Shown here: positions 24,055 through 53,779 of the stretch, piece by piece
Position numbering within the stretch: the first letter of the stretch is position 1
How the letters are laid out: each line of letters starts with the position of its first letter
Assembly (NCBI RefSeq): GCF_001610895.1
Contig: NZ_CP011273.1
Span: forward strand, 5,146,001 to 5,210,000
Source of the DNA: Planctomyces sp. SH-PL62
GTDB lineage: Bacteria; Planctomycetota; Planctomycetia; Isosphaerales; Isosphaeraceae
DNA: 64,000 nt
Reading direction: 5' to 3'
Program-made: the position numbers and the translations under genes
The notes under the pieces: model-generated
Seen by the model: the letters and a program-made list of their open reading frames with translations, nothing else
Told to the model about the DNA's origin: nothing
The model's database searches: none

Positions 24055-25080
24055 ATGAGCGTTCGCCTGAGCGTTGTCGTCCTGGTCTTGACACTCGTCG
24101 GTTCGGGGTCGGCGGGCGAGCTCGCGCGTTTCGAATACCTCGAGACGCACATGGGAAGCTCGTTCAAGATTCTCTTATACTCCACCCAGGAAACCGCCGC
24201 CAGACGCGCCTCCCGGGCCGCCTTCGATCGAATCGCCGCGCTCGACGCGGTCCTCAGCGACTACGACCCGGACAGCGAGCTTTCCCGGCTGGCGACCTCC
24301 GCGGGGGGTCCCCCCGTCGCGGTCGGCCCGGACCTCTTCGACGTCCTGGAGAAATCCCGGTACTGGTACGACGAGACCGGGGGCTGGCTCGACCCGACCA
24401 TCGCCCCGGTCGGTCGGCTCTGGCGCCGCGCCCGCCGCGAGCGCAAGCTCCCGGACGACGCGAAGCTCGACGCCGCCCTCGCGCTGGTCGGCATGGAGAA
24501 GCTGGTCCTCGACCCGAAGGCCCGGACCGTCCGGCTGACGAGGCCCGGCATGAAGCTGGACGTCGGCGGCGTCGCCAAGGGATACGCCGCGCAGGCCGCG
24601 ATCGACGTCCTGCGGGAGCAGGGGGTCGACCGGGCCCTGGTGGCGGGCGCGGGGGATATCGTCGTCTCGGGGCCGCCCCCGGACGCCGAGGGCTGGACGA
24701 TCGGGGTCGCCACCCTGGAGCCCTCGAAGACGGCGCCCGAGATCTATCTGTCGATCAAGGACGCGGCCGTCTCCACCTCCGGCGACGCCGAGCGGTTCGT
24801 GATCATCGACGGACGCCGATACTCACATATCATCAACCCCAGGACCGGCCGGCCGATCGAGGATCGGGCGAGCGTGACCGTGGTCGCGCCGGACGGCACC
24901 ACCGCCGACGTCCTGGAGACCACGGCCTACATGCTCGGGCCGGAAAAGGGCCTGGAATTCATCGATTCCATCCCCGGCGCGGCGGCCGTCTTCACCCGCG
25001 AGACCCCCGAGGGAATCCGACGTTACGAGTCGGCCCGGTTCAAGGACGTGCCCCGGGCGCAGCCGCGGCCTGCGCCTTGA
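24055..25080 (+). CDS. apbE: FAD:protein FMN transferase
   Basis: A 341-aa enzyme that attaches FMN covalently to threonine of partner proteins (for example Rnf/Nqr subunits) in the periplasm. It has a signal peptide starting at MSVRLSVVVLVLTLVGSGSA, then DAVLSDYDPDSELSRL, GGWLDPTIAPVGRLWRRA, the FAD site LDVGGVAKGYAAQAA, GAGDIVVSG, SHIINPRTGRP and the Mg-binding DVLETTAYMLG. All conserved family positions I know are present. Upstream codons to 24016 are open, but the signal peptide supports 24055. No obvious flavinylation target is adjacent. Its 3' end overlaps mscL by 41 bp on the opposite strand. Confidence 0.92.
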   Translation: MSVRLSVVVLVLTLVGSGSAGELARFEYLETHMGSSFKILLYSTQETAARRASRAAFDRIAALDAVLSDYDPDSELSRLATSAGGPPVAVGPDLFDVLEKSRYWYDETGGWLDPTIAPVGRLWRRARRERKLPDDAKLDAALALVGMEKLVLDPKARTVRLTRPGMKLDVGGVAKGYAAQAAIDVLREQGVDRALVAGAGDIVVSGPPPDAEGWTIGVATLEPSKTAPEIYLSIKDAAVSTSGDAERFVIIDGRRYSHIINPRTGRPIEDRASVTVVAPDGTTADVLETTAYMLGPEKGLEFIDSIPGAAAVFTRETPEGIRRYESARFKDVPRAQPRPAP

Positions 25081-43787: not shown

Positions 43788-43957
43788 CGGCTGCATCTCC
43801 CCTGGGGCGTTCGGGTTCTCGACGACCGCGATTGTCCGGCCCGGCGGCCGGCGCGGTCAACCCGGAACCTTCGCCGGTCGACGTTCGCGCCGCTTCCTCG
43901 TATCCTGGAGGAGACCGCCGACCCTCCCCCACTTCCCCCCCCCGAGGAACCGCCCGG

Positions 43958-45787
43958 ATGGGCTATCGCTCGCTCGCCGAATGCGTCCAGGACCTCCGAC
44001 GGACCGGCCAGCTCGTCGACGTCGACGAGGAGGTCGACCCCCATCTCGAAGTCGCCGCGATCCAGCGCCGGGTGTATCAGGCGGGGGGGCCCGCGGTCTA
44101 CTTCTCTCGGGTGAAGGGGACGCCGTTCCCCATGGTCGGGAACCTGTTCGGGACCATCGACCGCGCCCGGTTCCTGTTCCGCGACACCCTCGAATCGGTC
44201 CGCCGACTGGTCGAGGTGAAGGTGGACCCCTCGGCGGCGATGAAGCGGCCCTGGCGCTATCGCGGCCTGCCCGCGACCGCGCTGCGGCTCCTCCCCCGAA
44301 AGGTCCGCCGGGGCCCCATCCTCGCGCACCAGACGACCATCTCGCAGCTCCCCGCGCTGACCTCCTGGCCGGACGACGGCGGCCCGTTCGTCACGCTGCC
44401 GCTGGTCTACACCGAGGACCCGGACCGCCCCGGGCTGGCGCGGTCGAACCTCGGAATGTACCGAGTCCAGCTCTCGGGGAACGCCTACGAGAGGGATCGG
44501 GAGGTCGGACTCCATTACCAGATCCATCGCGGGATCGGCGTCCACCACGCGGCGGCGATCCGCCGGGGCGAGCCGCTGCGGGTCAACGTGGTGGTCGGCG
44601 GGCCCCCCGCCATGAGCGTCGCCGCCGTGATGCCGCTCCCGGAGGGACTCCCCGAGCTGGCCTTCGCGGGGGCGCTGGGGGGGCGTCGCGTGGCGATGGT
44701 GGCCCCCGAGGGGCGGCTGGCGATGCCCGCCGAGGCCGACTTCGTCATCTCCGGGATCGTCGACCCCGACGCCCGCAAGCCCGAGGGTCCGTTCGGCGAC
44801 CACCTCGGCTATTACAGCCTGGCCCACGACTTCCCCTTCCTCCGGGTGGACCGGGTCTATCATCGCGAGGGGGCCGTCTGGCCGTTCACGTCGGTCGGCC
44901 GCCCCCCGCAGGAGGACACGACGTTCGGCGAGCTGATCCACGACCTGACCGGGCCGATCATCCCCACCGTCCTTCCCGGCCTCCACGCCGTCCACGCCGT
45001 CGACGCCGCCGGCGTCCACCCCCTGCTCCTGGCGATCGCCAGCGAGCGCTACGTCCCCTACGCCGAGGTCCGCCAGCCCCAGGAGATCCTGACCGTCGCC
45101 AACGCCGTGCTCGGCCAGGGTCAGCTCTCGCTGGCCAAGTACCTCCTGATCGTCGCCCGCGAGGACGACCCGGATCTGGACATCAACGACATCGCCGCCT
45201 TCCTCCGCCACCTGCTCGAACGGATCGACTGGACGAGGGACCTCCACTTCCAGACCCGGACCACCATGGACACCCTGGACTACTCCGGCCACGGGCTGAA
45301 CCAGGGCTCGAAGGTCGTGATGGCCGCCGCCGGCCCCAGGCGCCGGGAACTTCCCCGCGAGCTTCCCCCCGGCTTGCGGCTCCCCGACGGCTTCCGCGAC
45401 CCCCGACTGGTCATCCCCGGCGTCCTGGCCGTCTCCGGCCCGAAGTTCGAGCCCGACGCCACCCGGATCCGGGAGTTCTCCGCCTCCTTCGGCCCCGACG
45501 ACCCGATCCGGGCCTTCCCGATGATCGTGGTGGTCGACGACGCCGAGTTCACCGCCCGCAACCTCACGAACTTCCTCTGGGTCGTCTTCACCCGGTCCAA
45601 CCCGGCCGTCGACGTCCACGGGATCGGCGAGTTCGTCCAGGACAAGCACTGGGGATGCACCGGCCCGCTCGTGATCGACGCCCGCATCAAGCCCCACCAC
45701 GCCCCCCCCCTGATCGACGACCCCGAGACCGAAGCCCGCGTCGACCGCCTCGCCGCCCCCGGAGGCCCGCTGCACGGCATCCTCTGA
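43958..45787 (+). CDS. UbiD-family decarboxylase, long form
   Basis: A 609-aa prenyl-FMN-dependent decarboxylase-type protein. The start MGYRSLAECVQDLRRTGQL follows GAGG. Family features are the VDPHLEVAAIQRRVYQAGGP opening, LGMYRVQLSGN and NAYERDREVGLHYQIHRG, ELAFAGALGGRRVAMV and the cofactor/metal region EGPFGDHLGYYS. UbiD enzymes act on aromatic acids, for example in ubiquinone or menaquinone synthesis, and need prenyl-FMN from UbiX, which is not here. It is about 110 residues longer than E. coli UbiD. The C-terminal part after about residue 450 (RREL... to DDPIRAFPMIVVVDDAEFTA) is a second alpha-beta unit. Substrate unknown. Confidence 0.87.
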   Translation: MGYRSLAECVQDLRRTGQLVDVDEEVDPHLEVAAIQRRVYQAGGPAVYFSRVKGTPFPMVGNLFGTIDRARFLFRDTLESVRRLVEVKVDPSAAMKRPWRYRGLPATALRLLPRKVRRGPILAHQTTISQLPALTSWPDDGGPFVTLPLVYTEDPDRPGLARSNLGMYRVQLSGNAYERDREVGLHYQIHRGIGVHHAAAIRRGEPLRVNVVVGGPPAMSVAAVMPLPEGLPELAFAGALGGRRVAMVAPEGRLAMPAEADFVISGIVDPDARKPEGPFGDHLGYYSLAHDFPFLRVDRVYHREGAVWPFTSVGRPPQEDTTFGELIHDLTGPIIPTVLPGLHAVHAVDAAGVHPLLLAIASERYVPYAEVRQPQEILTVANAVLGQGQLSLAKYLLIVAREDDPDLDINDIAAFLRHLLERIDWTRDLHFQTRTTMDTLDYSGHGLNQGSKVVMAAAGPRRRELPRELPPGLRLPDGFRDPRLVIPGVLAVSGPKFEPDATRIREFSASFGPDDPIRAFPMIVVVDDAEFTARNLTNFLWVVFTRSNPAVDVHGIGEFVQDKHWGCTGPLVIDARIKPHHAPPLIDDPETEARVDRLAAPGGPLHGIL

Positions 45788-45805: not shown

Positions 45806-46160
45806 GCGGCGATTGGGTTCAAAATTGGGTTCGTTCGCGCGCGGTCGAACGAACCCATCGGACGTAAACCATTGCCACCAAATAGGTTTATCTGGATACC
45901 GCCGCACCATGGATTGGCTTCCTTCGGCGTTTTTCGCCTCGGCGACCTTGTTCGGCGGGACCGGAAGGTCATCTGAAGCCCCTGCTGCCGGCATCACGGC
46001 GATTGGGTTCAAAATTGGGTTCGTTCGCGCCGCGGCCGGACGAACCCATCGGACGCAACTTCTTATTTTCAAAGTCCTTTTGATAGATCCAACCGCCCCG
46101 TGGATTGGCTTCCTTCGGCGTTTTCTCCTCGTCGATCTCGTTCGCCGGGGTCGGGTGGGC
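45806..46160. repeat. two copies of a hairpin-bearing repeat, about 190-bp period
   Basis: A 60-bp block starting GGCGATTGGGTTCAAAATTG occurs at 45808 and again at 45998. A second block starting TGGATTGGCTTCCTTCGGCG occurs at 45909 and 46101. The 46-50 bases between blocks differ. The first block holds a 12-bp inverted repeat, TGGGTTCGTTCG (45826-45837) with CGAACGAACCCA (45846-45857); in the second copy one pair is lost. The short open frames across both copies change with the variable parts, so I read this as a non-coding repeat rather than a gene. Confidence 0.75.
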
Positions 46161-46307
46161 GGTCGACATTCGACCGTCTCGGCACCGCGTGCAAGGCGGC
46201 GTCGAGGAGGAGGCGCGACGGAACGCCCCACCAGGACAATGCGCCCGGTCCGGCGGTCGCGAACGAGATTCGGCGTGGAGAGCAGGGCCATGCCCCGGCG
46301 GCGGCAT

Positions 46308-46576: not shown

Positions 46577-47649
46577 GTGTCTTTGGTCGTCAAAGATCTG
46601 ATCGACGCCGGCGTACACTTCGGCCACCGGGCCAGCCGCTGGAACCCGAAGATGAAGCCGTACATCTACGGCAAGCGCAACCTGATCCACATCATCGACT
46701 TGAAGGAGACGGTGCGCGGGCTGCTTCGCGCCACCAAGTACTTCCACAAGGTCGCCTCGCAGAACGGGCTGATCCTGTTCGTCGGAACCAAGCGGCAGGC
46801 TTCCGAGACGCTCGTCGAGGAATGCACCCGCAGCGGCATGCCCTACGTCACCGAGCGTTGGCTGGGCGGCACGCTGACCAACTTCCGGACGATCCGCAGC
46901 CGGCTGGAACGGCTTGAGGAGCTGGAGACGATCCTCGACGGCGAGCAGGCCGCGAGCTACTCCAAGAAGATGATCTCCACGCTCACCCGCGAGCGTCGGA
47001 AGATCGAGCGTAACCTCAGCGGCATCCGCAACATGACGCGGCTCCCCGAGGCCCTGCTGGTGGTCGACCCGCGTCGCGAGCACATCGCCGTCGCCGAGGC
47101 CCGCAAGCTGGGCGTCAAGGTCGTCGCGCTCCTGGACACGGACTGCGATCCGGACCTGGTCGACCTGCCGGTCCCGGCCAACGACGACAGCATGCGGTCG
47201 ATCGAGCTGCTGATCAAGCGGCTGAACGACGCGATCATCGAGGGCAAGGCCATCGCCCCCGACCTGCCGCCGCAGGTGGAAGAGCGCGAGGAGCGCGGCC
47301 CGCGTCGCGGCCGTGACGACCGTGGCGGTCGCCGTGGACCCGGCGGTCCCCGCGACGGCATCCGCATGGGCGGCGGCGGCGGCAGCGGCCCCGTCCCCCG
47401 TCGGGCCCCGGACAGGCCCCGGTCCCGGCTCCGGCCCCCGTCGCCCCCGCCCCGGTCGCCGAAGCGGCCCCGGCCGTCGACGCGGCCCCGGCCGCCGACG
47501 CAGCCCCTGTCGCCGAGGCGGCTCCCGTCGCCGAAGCGGCCCCGGCCGTCGAGTCGGCCCCGGCCCCTGTCGAGCAGCCCGCCGAGTCGGCGTCCGCCGA
47601 GCCGAAGGACGAGGCCCCGGCCGCCGAGCCGACCGGCGAAGGCGCCTGA
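46577..47649 (+). CDS. rpsB: 30S ribosomal protein S2 with acidic Ala/Pro tail, frame broken at a C-run
   Basis: The S2 core is intact: [97 protein letters not shown] 46577 follows GAGAGGTGG, and similarity starts there although the frame is open to 46346. After a Gly/Arg-rich stretch the observed frame turns into unnatural Arg/Pro text running to 47929, inside tsf. The -1 frame instead reads an orderly acidic tail ([15 protein letters not shown] and similar units) to TGA 47647-47649. One extra C in the runs at 47395-47399 or 47406-47409 joins them. Corrected length would be about 357 aa, versus 241 in E. coli. Confidence 0.85.
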
Positions 47650-47868
47650 CCCTCGCCCCGCGAGGGTCCGCCATCGGACCATCAACCGGCCGCCGTCTCC
47701 GCGACGGCGGCCGGCCCCTCGCGCCGTCCCGATCCCCCCGATCGGCCAGCCGATCCGTTTCGACGGTCCTTCGACCGACGCTTCCCGGGATCGATCGGAC
47801 GCGCGACACCCCCCGCACAGATCCGCTCGAAGCCACGAGTCGACCGAAAGCAAGAGGAGAGTTCCCGA

Positions 47869-48465
47869 ATGGCCGCGATCACGGCTCAGGTTGTCAATGA
47901 GTTCCGCAAGAAGACCGGACTGGGCCTGATGGAGTGCAAGAAGCTCCTGACCGAGGCCGACGGCGACCTGGCCAAGGCCGAAACCCTGGCCAAGGAGCGT
48001 GGGCTCAAGCAGGCCGAACTTCGCGCCGGGCGCGCCGCCACCGCCGGCCGCGTCGAGGCGTACATCCACCACGACTCGAAGTCGGGCGTCCTGGTCGAGC
48101 TGAACTGCGAGACCGACTTCGTCGCCCGCAACGACGAGTTCAAGCAGCTCGCCAAGGACCTCGCCCTGCACGTCATGGCGGTCAACCCCAAGTACGTCCG
48201 CCGCGAGGACGTGCCGGCCGACGCCGTCGCCGAGCAGAAGCGGATCTTCATCAGCCAGGTGGCCGACAAGCCCGAGGCCATCCAGGAGAAGATCGCCGTC
48301 GGCAAGCTCGACTCGTGGTACGCCGAGTCGGTCCTGATGGACCAGCCGTTCATCCGAGACGACACGAAGAGCGTCAAGGACGTCATCATGGCCGTCAACG
48401 CCCGCGTCGGCGAGAACATCTCGATCGCCCGCTTCGCCCGCTTCATCGTCGGCGAGGCTCGCTGA
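47869..48465 (+). CDS. tsf: elongation factor Ts
   Basis: A 198-aa nucleotide exchange factor for EF-Tu, of the short Thermus-like length rather than the 283 aa of E. coli. The N-terminal UBA-type helix motif [18 protein letters not shown], the connecting helix [19 protein letters not shown] and the TDFV core element [20 protein letters not shown] are clear. The C-terminal [17 protein letters not shown] is the conserved end. GAGGAGAG precedes the ATG. It follows rpsB as in most bacteria. Confidence 0.96.
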
Positions 48466-50236: not shown

Positions 50237-50310
50237 GGGCGATTAGCTCAGTTGGCTAGAGCGCATGCTCGACACGCATGAGGTCACAGGTTCGAATCCT
50301 GTATCGCCCA
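50237..50310 (+). tRNA. tRNA-Val (anticodon GAC), copy 1
   Basis: A 74-base cloverleaf. Acceptor GGGCGAT pairs with ATCGCCC, D-stem GCTC with GAGC, anticodon stem CATGC with GCATG, and T-stem ACAGG with CCTGT around TTCGAAT. The anticodon loop is TCGACAC, giving GAC for valine codons. Position 33 is C instead of the nearly universal T. The 3' CCA is not encoded. It is identical to the copy at 53706. Confidence 0.93.
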
Positions 50311-53705: not shown

Positions 53706-53779
53706 GGGCGATTAGCTCAGTTGGCTAGAGCGCATGCTCGACACGCATGAGGTCACAGGTTCGAATCCTGTATCGCCCA
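53706..53779 (+). tRNA. tRNA-Val (anticodon GAC), copy 2
   Basis: Identical over all 74 bases to the gene at 50237, including C at position 33 and the lack of an encoded CCA. Identity extends a few bases into both flanks (CCGGGCG before, CTC after) and then stops. It has its own promoter, and a terminator-like hairpin lies downstream. Confidence 0.93.

Follow-up and report, generated by a model that had tools for sequence, protein, structure and literature searches.

The double repeat between ubiD and rpsB in Planctomyces sp. SH-PL62 belongs to a large, non-coding, Paludisphaera-wide family of repeats built on a direct 13-bp box, TTGGSTTCGTTCG. At most loci a promoter-like module beyond the array reads back into it, the distances between boxes and from box to module step by about 11 bp, and many arrays persist at orthologous sites in a second species. 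These features taken together, it seems probable that the elements are phased arrays of boxes in duplex DNA, each tied to a promoter of its own and bound by a putative looping protein.

The window (the whole stretch of 64,000 nucleotides that was analysed) contains direct repeats of 54, 39 and 28 nt, spaced by 190/191 bp and 87-89% identical, between the stop codon of ubiD (45787) and rpsB, which has a recognisable start near 46577. The 23-mer of the second conserved block occurs twice in the window, against a mean of 0.00 in 100 shuffles. The initial annotation, which described two tandem copies of about 190 bp at this position, with hairpin arms perfect in copy 1 and nearly kept in copy 2, was accurate on each of these points: the 12-bp arms are 100% complementary in copy 1 (45826-45837/45846-45857) and 92% in copy 2 (46016-46027/46037-46048). 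Its limits of 45806-46160 enclose both copies, but the feature reaches to about 46263, as a promoter-like module on the minus strand (46236-46263) also belongs to it. Neither this module nor the helical spacing of the boxes is described in the initial annotation. Each unit holds one 13-bp box three times: two of the copies form the hairpin arms and the third lies in the second block (45914-45926, 46105-46117). The features are:

45825..45837, plus strand: unit 1 box A, TTGGGTTCGTTCG, a box conserved over the family
45846..45857, minus strand: unit 1 inverted box A', CGAACGAACCCA on the plus strand, pairing with A in a perfect hairpin of 12 bp
45858..45913: unit 1 AT-rich core, variable in sequence, with conserved CGYAA and TT positions and near-fixed length in the family
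45914..45926, plus strand: unit 1 box A'', TTGGCTTCCTTCG then GCGTTTTTC, 89 bp from A
46015..46027, plus strand: unit 2 box A, 101 bp from unit 1 A''
46037..46048, minus strand: unit 2 inverted box A', CGGACGAACCCA on the plus strand, with 11/12 pairs to A
46105..46117, plus strand: unit 2 box A'', TTGGCTTCCTTCG, 90 bp from unit 2 A
45812..45820, plus strand: extra half-box ATTGGGTTC, 12 bp before the ATTGGGTTC of unit 1 box A
46002-46010: extra half-box before unit 2, in the same arrangement as that of unit 1
46236..46241, minus strand: -10-like CATTGT, its A at 46240, 135 bp from unit 2 A''; score 33.6
46258..46263, minus strand: -35-like TTCGCG, 16 bp before the -10-like element; the family consensus here is TYCSCR
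45822..46229, minus strand: predicted non-coding transcript of both units, its start near 46229 as judged from the module
43832..45787, plus strand: ubiD-family gene whose start is uncertain; it converges with the predicted transcript

We take the gene at 43832..45787 to be of the ubiD family, as in the initial annotation; its stop codon precedes the 5' edge of the first unit (45822) by 34 bp, and homologues were found in all 15 genomes searched. The rpsB frame (46577-47929) runs on beyond its conserved region; this extension is long, of low complexity and overlaps the following gene, presumably tsf, perhaps through a frameshift.

A DNA search of the organism's own genome with copy 1 returned 68 matches (40 of 105 candidates scored). 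With a sequence-only profile built from 32 copies, 150 of 3050 candidates were scored and 158 matches had E<=1; the 126 with E up to 1.3e-4 were kept as units. In the 6.78 Mb SH-PL62 genome these form 91 loci, 58 with a single unit, 31 with a pair and 2 with a triplet, and nearly all are intergenic: only two overlap a called gene, the gene calls being rough ones from a small script of our own, which missed rpsB. All units of a locus are on one strand; overall 65 are on the plus and 61 on the minus strand. The search for further intergenic copies with variable centres, proposed in the initial annotation as the check on a dispersed non-coding element, thus came out in its favour. The gene on the 5' side of the boxes is on the same strand at 56 loci and on the opposite strand at 34, and is absent at one; at 32 of the 56 the stop codon lies no more than 28 nt from the first box. 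On the other side, 49 of 50 convergent genes leave a gap of 111 nt or more, and it was this gap that led to the promoter-like module. Exact boxes number 134 in SH-PL62, and among 100 of them that were listed, 87 lie in a unit or within 40 bp of one, 6 within 700 bp and 7 alone. Two unit matches lie on a second contig of 98 kb, likely a plasmid (G000:C2:85872-85991 and 24259-24322).

The initial annotation knew of no named family, and Rfam gave no match over any unit tested. In the 64-kb window Rfam recognised only two tRNAs, plus-strand genes at 50237-50310 and 53706-53779 with an equal score of 69.4 bits, and in nine loci one weak match to whalefall-1, which falls below the gathering threshold (E 0.028) and does not overlap the units of its locus (L031). 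In the open-access literature on Isosphaeraceae, Paludisphaera, Planctomycetes and Singulisphaera, no title or opening of an abstract describing such an element was found.

A unit consists, in order, of box A, a loop, usually the inverted box A', an AT-rich core and the direct box A'', which is followed by GGCGnTTTTC. Of 118 units, 99 have an A-A' loop of 9-10 nt, and 99 have an AT-rich middle of 54-56 nt. The middle, called unrelated between the two copies in the initial annotation, is indeed variable in sequence, but over the family it has a near-fixed length and near-invariant positions: in the 67 units where it is exactly 55 nt, AA is present in 65 and 61 and TT in 61 and 64. The S base of the box is C in 56 and G in 34 of the 90 last A'' boxes, and never A or T. 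The hairpin is mostly imperfect, with 12/12 pairs in 13 of 118 units and at least 10 pairs in 56. A and A' of the same unit form 9.50 pairs on average compared with 9.35 for arms swapped between copies (z 2.1), and there is weak covariation at the S base (Fisher p=0.006).

The module lies past the last unit on the opposite strand and scores above 8 at 82 of the 91 loci; in control scans 90 of 91 were at or below 1.7 and one reached 6.0. Its consensus is TYCSCR, 16 bp, CATnnT, a purine start and then GGGG. Since the seed pattern used in the search fixed the A and T of CATnnT, the presence of these bases in 82/82 loci partly reflects the search itself. When the search was run from random starts and given no seed, it found the same motif in the same register at 75 of the 82 loci and placed it elsewhere at a few, and control windows gave only a codon-like pattern. 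A purine is found 12 nt after the first -10 base at 64 of the 82 loci, preceded by T at 48. In the window there is a single hit above 14 on either strand, at 46241 on the minus strand (score 33.6), and the 472 kb around the loci contain seven others, two of which are the own modules of two overlapping loci. Among the best 40 of 60 P. soli loci, 34 have the module, each of them with a single hit, while the opposite strand has none. In P. borealis the SH-PL62 profile performs poorly, and the random-start search gives GTCGTAnAnT; a profile refitted to 25 P. borealis loci has a TAnAnT -10 and a mean score of 23.5 compared with 13.8 on the control side.

In sequence the module has the hallmarks of a bacterial promoter: the A2 and T6 of a -10 element, a -35 element about 16-18 bp before it and a purine start about 7 nt after it. 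The SH-PL62 -10-like element begins with C (CATnnT) rather than with the T of the textbook TATAAT. We infer that the module may be an active promoter that transcribes the array. The predicted one-unit transcript would measure 180-189 nt to the unit end at 26 of 48 loci. By eye, GAAAAACGCGC is often seen before the first box in the P. borealis loci L171-L175 and L231-L250.

The spacing of the boxes is regular. From A to A'' the start-to-start distance is 88-91 bp in 164 of 173 units and 77-80 bp in seven (two species). From A'' to the A of the next unit the distances cluster near 47, 58, 69, 81, 91 and 102 bp, and from A'' to the module near 101, 112, 123 and 134 bp; those in the window are 89, 101, 90 and 135 bp. 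The unit-to-unit period is 11.0 bp (39 of 46 distances, under 180 bp; R 0.72, p~1e-9) and the A''-to-module period 11.1 bp (98 of 114, under 170 bp; R 0.46, p~1e-9), these p-values being optimistic because units within a species share ancestry. Jitter controls reached neither in 2000 trials (0/2000 each), and the phasing in SH-PL62 was robust to other cut-offs. The box-to-box period in P. borealis is 11.1 bp (n=42, R 0.61, p~1e-7, jitter 0/5000), as obtained from the first 100 boxes listed, 97 of which were entered and three omitted for want of a same-strand neighbour within 180 bp. Fits of lac loops in E. coli in vivo give 11.08-11.60 bp per turn (PMC1762422). Spacing periodic at the in-vivo helical repeat, a mark of DNA-looping operator arrays, is present overall, with subsets that are weaker or have other best periods. 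P. soli alone gives a weaker signal (best period 10.5, n=28, R 0.40, p~0.01), and the P. borealis box-to-module distances, the two lowest-scoring of the 25 loci being left out, fit best at 10.6 (n=23, R 0.65; 0.54 at 11.0). The 33 spacings of exact boxes from the list of 100 fit best at 10.1 (R 0.69; 0.60 at 11.2), and the common 82-83-bp spacing of P. borealis falls off the ladder of about 11 bp.

Of the best 40 of the 60 P. soli loci, 30 share flanks with the 91 loci of SH-PL62, which together cover about 7% of that genome. When 17 equal-length pairs of orthologous units are compared, the cores are 0.377 identical, compared with 0.370 for random units; the values are 0.842 for A (random 0.855) and 0.886 for A'' (random 0.881), and the S base is the same in just 10 and 9 of the 17 pairs. 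As the boxes are kept at their sites, the core is saturated and the S base swaps between G and C, we read this as purifying selection on duplex DNA that would hold the boxes at each site; gene conversion between copies may also be a source of their likeness. Both modules are present in 23 orthologous pairs. In 15 of these pairs the two A''-to-module distances are within 60 bp of each other, and the phase at 11 bp is kept moderately (mean cosine 0.50, falling to 0.43 in the 10 pairs whose distances are more than 3 bp apart).

The favoured reading of these results is as follows. The module would read into one to several units of direct TTGGSTTCGTTCG boxes about 90 bp apart on either side of the AT-rich core (in P. 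borealis about 82 bp or at other rungs), as a rule with an inverted copy in SH-PL62 and P. soli, and the steps of about 11 bp from box to box and from box to promoter would each correspond to one helical turn of supercoiled DNA in vivo. A putative protein would bind the boxes as double-stranded DNA, oligomerise or loop over the array along one face of the helix, and so control RNA polymerase at the coupled promoter, or local chromosome folding. Boxes at whole-turn spacings beside a promoter-like signal suggest a protein that folds or loops DNA, and direct boxes at whole turns, a base that is only ever G or C, the lack of RNA structure and the phased module together favour a protein on double-stranded DNA. 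The interchange of G and C at the S base would point to readout through the minor groove. The act or the product of transcription may still matter. A bolder version, possible rather than probable, is that the arrays are some ninety stand-alone nucleoprotein loci, transcribed, read through the minor groove and serving as looping, insulating or chromosome-folding stations between genes, a bacterial counterpart of insulator sites, with a promoter belonging to each.

A rather unlikely alternative to phased duplex DNA is that the loci are small-RNA genes, in which the boxes (CGAACGAASCCAA in the transcript) would be sites for an RNA-binding protein, as in a CsrB-like sponge, or the variable centre an antisense guide. 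The module that reads into the array at most loci and the uniform length of many predicted one-unit transcripts would fit this, as would a motif near CTCTTTGnCAATYCGG, noticed by eye 25-45 nt after the -10 in the P. borealis leaders (L171-L175, L231-L250). However, RNAalifold returned no pair and no consensus structure for the box strand or for the transcribed strand (the latter from 30 of the 32 sequences), and 40 of the 48 predicted one-unit RNAs, taken for folding, were no better than dinucleotide shuffles (mean z -0.37). Covariation did not go beyond neighbouring columns and was strongest among columns 73-89, which resembles register shifts; the interchange of G and C is hard to accept in single-stranded RNA, and unpaired RNA would gain nothing obvious from helical spacing. 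A CRISPR-like spacer or guide role for the centres is weakened by their conserved positions, by their saturation between orthologues and by the lack of any phage match for the 16 centres searched out of 103 eligible. That the repeat is coding, or an artefact of simple repeats, is scarcely credible: open frames do cross the region, but closed frames in the 48 one-unit RNAs average 31.6 codons compared with 36.6 in shuffles, the middle is mostly 55 nt, which is not a multiple of three, and the family search returned 126 strong matches.

The initial annotation likened the repeat to REP/BIME or MITE elements, and a non-autonomous mobile element of this or a Correia-like kind, carrying a promoter and spreading in the genome, would account for the high copy number, the intergenic positions, the imperfect hairpin and the tandem copies. 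Six ubiD-rpsB spacers were examined, nine of the 15 ubiD loci not being located by our script: P. soli has two units there and G029 one, the boxes are reversed in G030, the array is absent from P. borealis (G028), and no boxes were seen after ubiD in G032, a patchiness that also suits mobility. Against this, the Y1 (RAYT) transposase family PF01797 has no match in the SH-PL62 genome and matches in 5 of 14 control genomes. The hairpin barely beats swapped copies, and in place of a palindrome with covarying arms there is the weak signal at the S base and an inverted arm nearly lacking in P. borealis (exact CGAASCCA after 1 of 133 boxes). A and A'' are direct and the sole inverted copy is internal, so that terminal inverted repeats are missing. 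On the features examined the likeness is not upheld, and mobility is improbable also in view of the 30 loci common to P. soli and of boxes that persist beside saturated cores and flanks, unlike relics. Still more improbable, and by a long way, is a terminator or attenuator at the 3' end of the upstream gene, with A:A' and A':A'' as alternative hairpins: the stop codons close to many first boxes and the GGCGnTTTTC after A'' would suit it, but the upstream gene is on the opposite strand at 34 of 91 loci, A:A' pairing is only slightly above that of swapped copies, and the inverted arm is lacking in P. borealis. Between A' and A'' there is no covariation (Fisher p=1.0, with a z of 0.04 for pairing), and a terminator/antiterminator switch was rejected on this ground. 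A second palindromic, MITE-like repeat (GACTCCTCACTCAAC...CCACGGGTTC...GAACCCGTGG...GTTGAGTGAGGAGTC) is present beside or inside some arrays (L009 at about 1500-1800, L019, L028 and L147), and at G000:C1 ~5507290-5507570 such a repeat splits a unit just 5' of A''.

Several known systems resemble the phased arrays in part. Class I (CRP-like) activator sites stand at helical-turn distances from promoters, and the positions here also step by about 11 bp relative to the promoter-like module; the boxes, however, are direct repeats located downstream of the predicted start and up to 12 or more turns away. The Correia/NEMIS elements of Neisseria are dispersed intergenic elements of 100-200 bp with promoters and protein sites, but they have terminal inverted repeats and MITE features, whereas here the boxes are direct, the number of units varies and the sites are largely common between species. 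REP/BIME repeats with their RAYT transposase are dispersed, intergenic and hairpin-bearing, often near gene ends; the present family differs in having no Y1 transposase, a dispensable hairpin, a third direct box and a promoter-like module. The looping operators of lac, ara and gal in E. coli share with it several copies of a site near a promoter and spacing that counts modulo one turn, the in-vivo period for lac being about 11.1-11.6 bp (PMC1762422), but they are single loci with known genes, whereas some 90 loci here share array and module with no common downstream gene. Intergenic repeats of halovirus HF2 also carry promoters; they are short (58 and 29 bp) and confined to one virus, and the opening of the abstract mentions no phased box array (PMC8707807).

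If the favoured reading is right, helical phasing at many independent loci records naturally, and across the whole genome of a planctomycete, how DNA is twisted in vivo; it also points to a protein that loops DNA and has some ninety conserved stations in each genome. A repeat resembling a hairpin element could then be an element of DNA architecture, kept at orthologous sites.

The full profile has hits in all six Paludisphaera members searched and in 2 of 39 other family members, with one match each. The box followed by GGCG, with one mismatch allowed, is found in 23 of 45 Isosphaeraceae genomes, reversed-pattern controls being near zero, and the binding factor may therefore predate the genus. 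With one mismatch allowed, 522 boxes are found in P. borealis (control 16), in arrays of 3 to 8 boxes at the loci read. Other Isosphaeraceae genomes arrange the box differently, in repeats of 24, 36 and 51 bp that have no obvious fit to the ladder. In G007, a member of another genus, the boxes of L156-L161 are about 34-51 bp apart, with no promoter-like hit above 11, and in a further genome L162 (G011:C1:3705500-3706700) is a 24-bp tandem array of around two dozen copies of TTGGGTTCGttcggcccgccgcgg.
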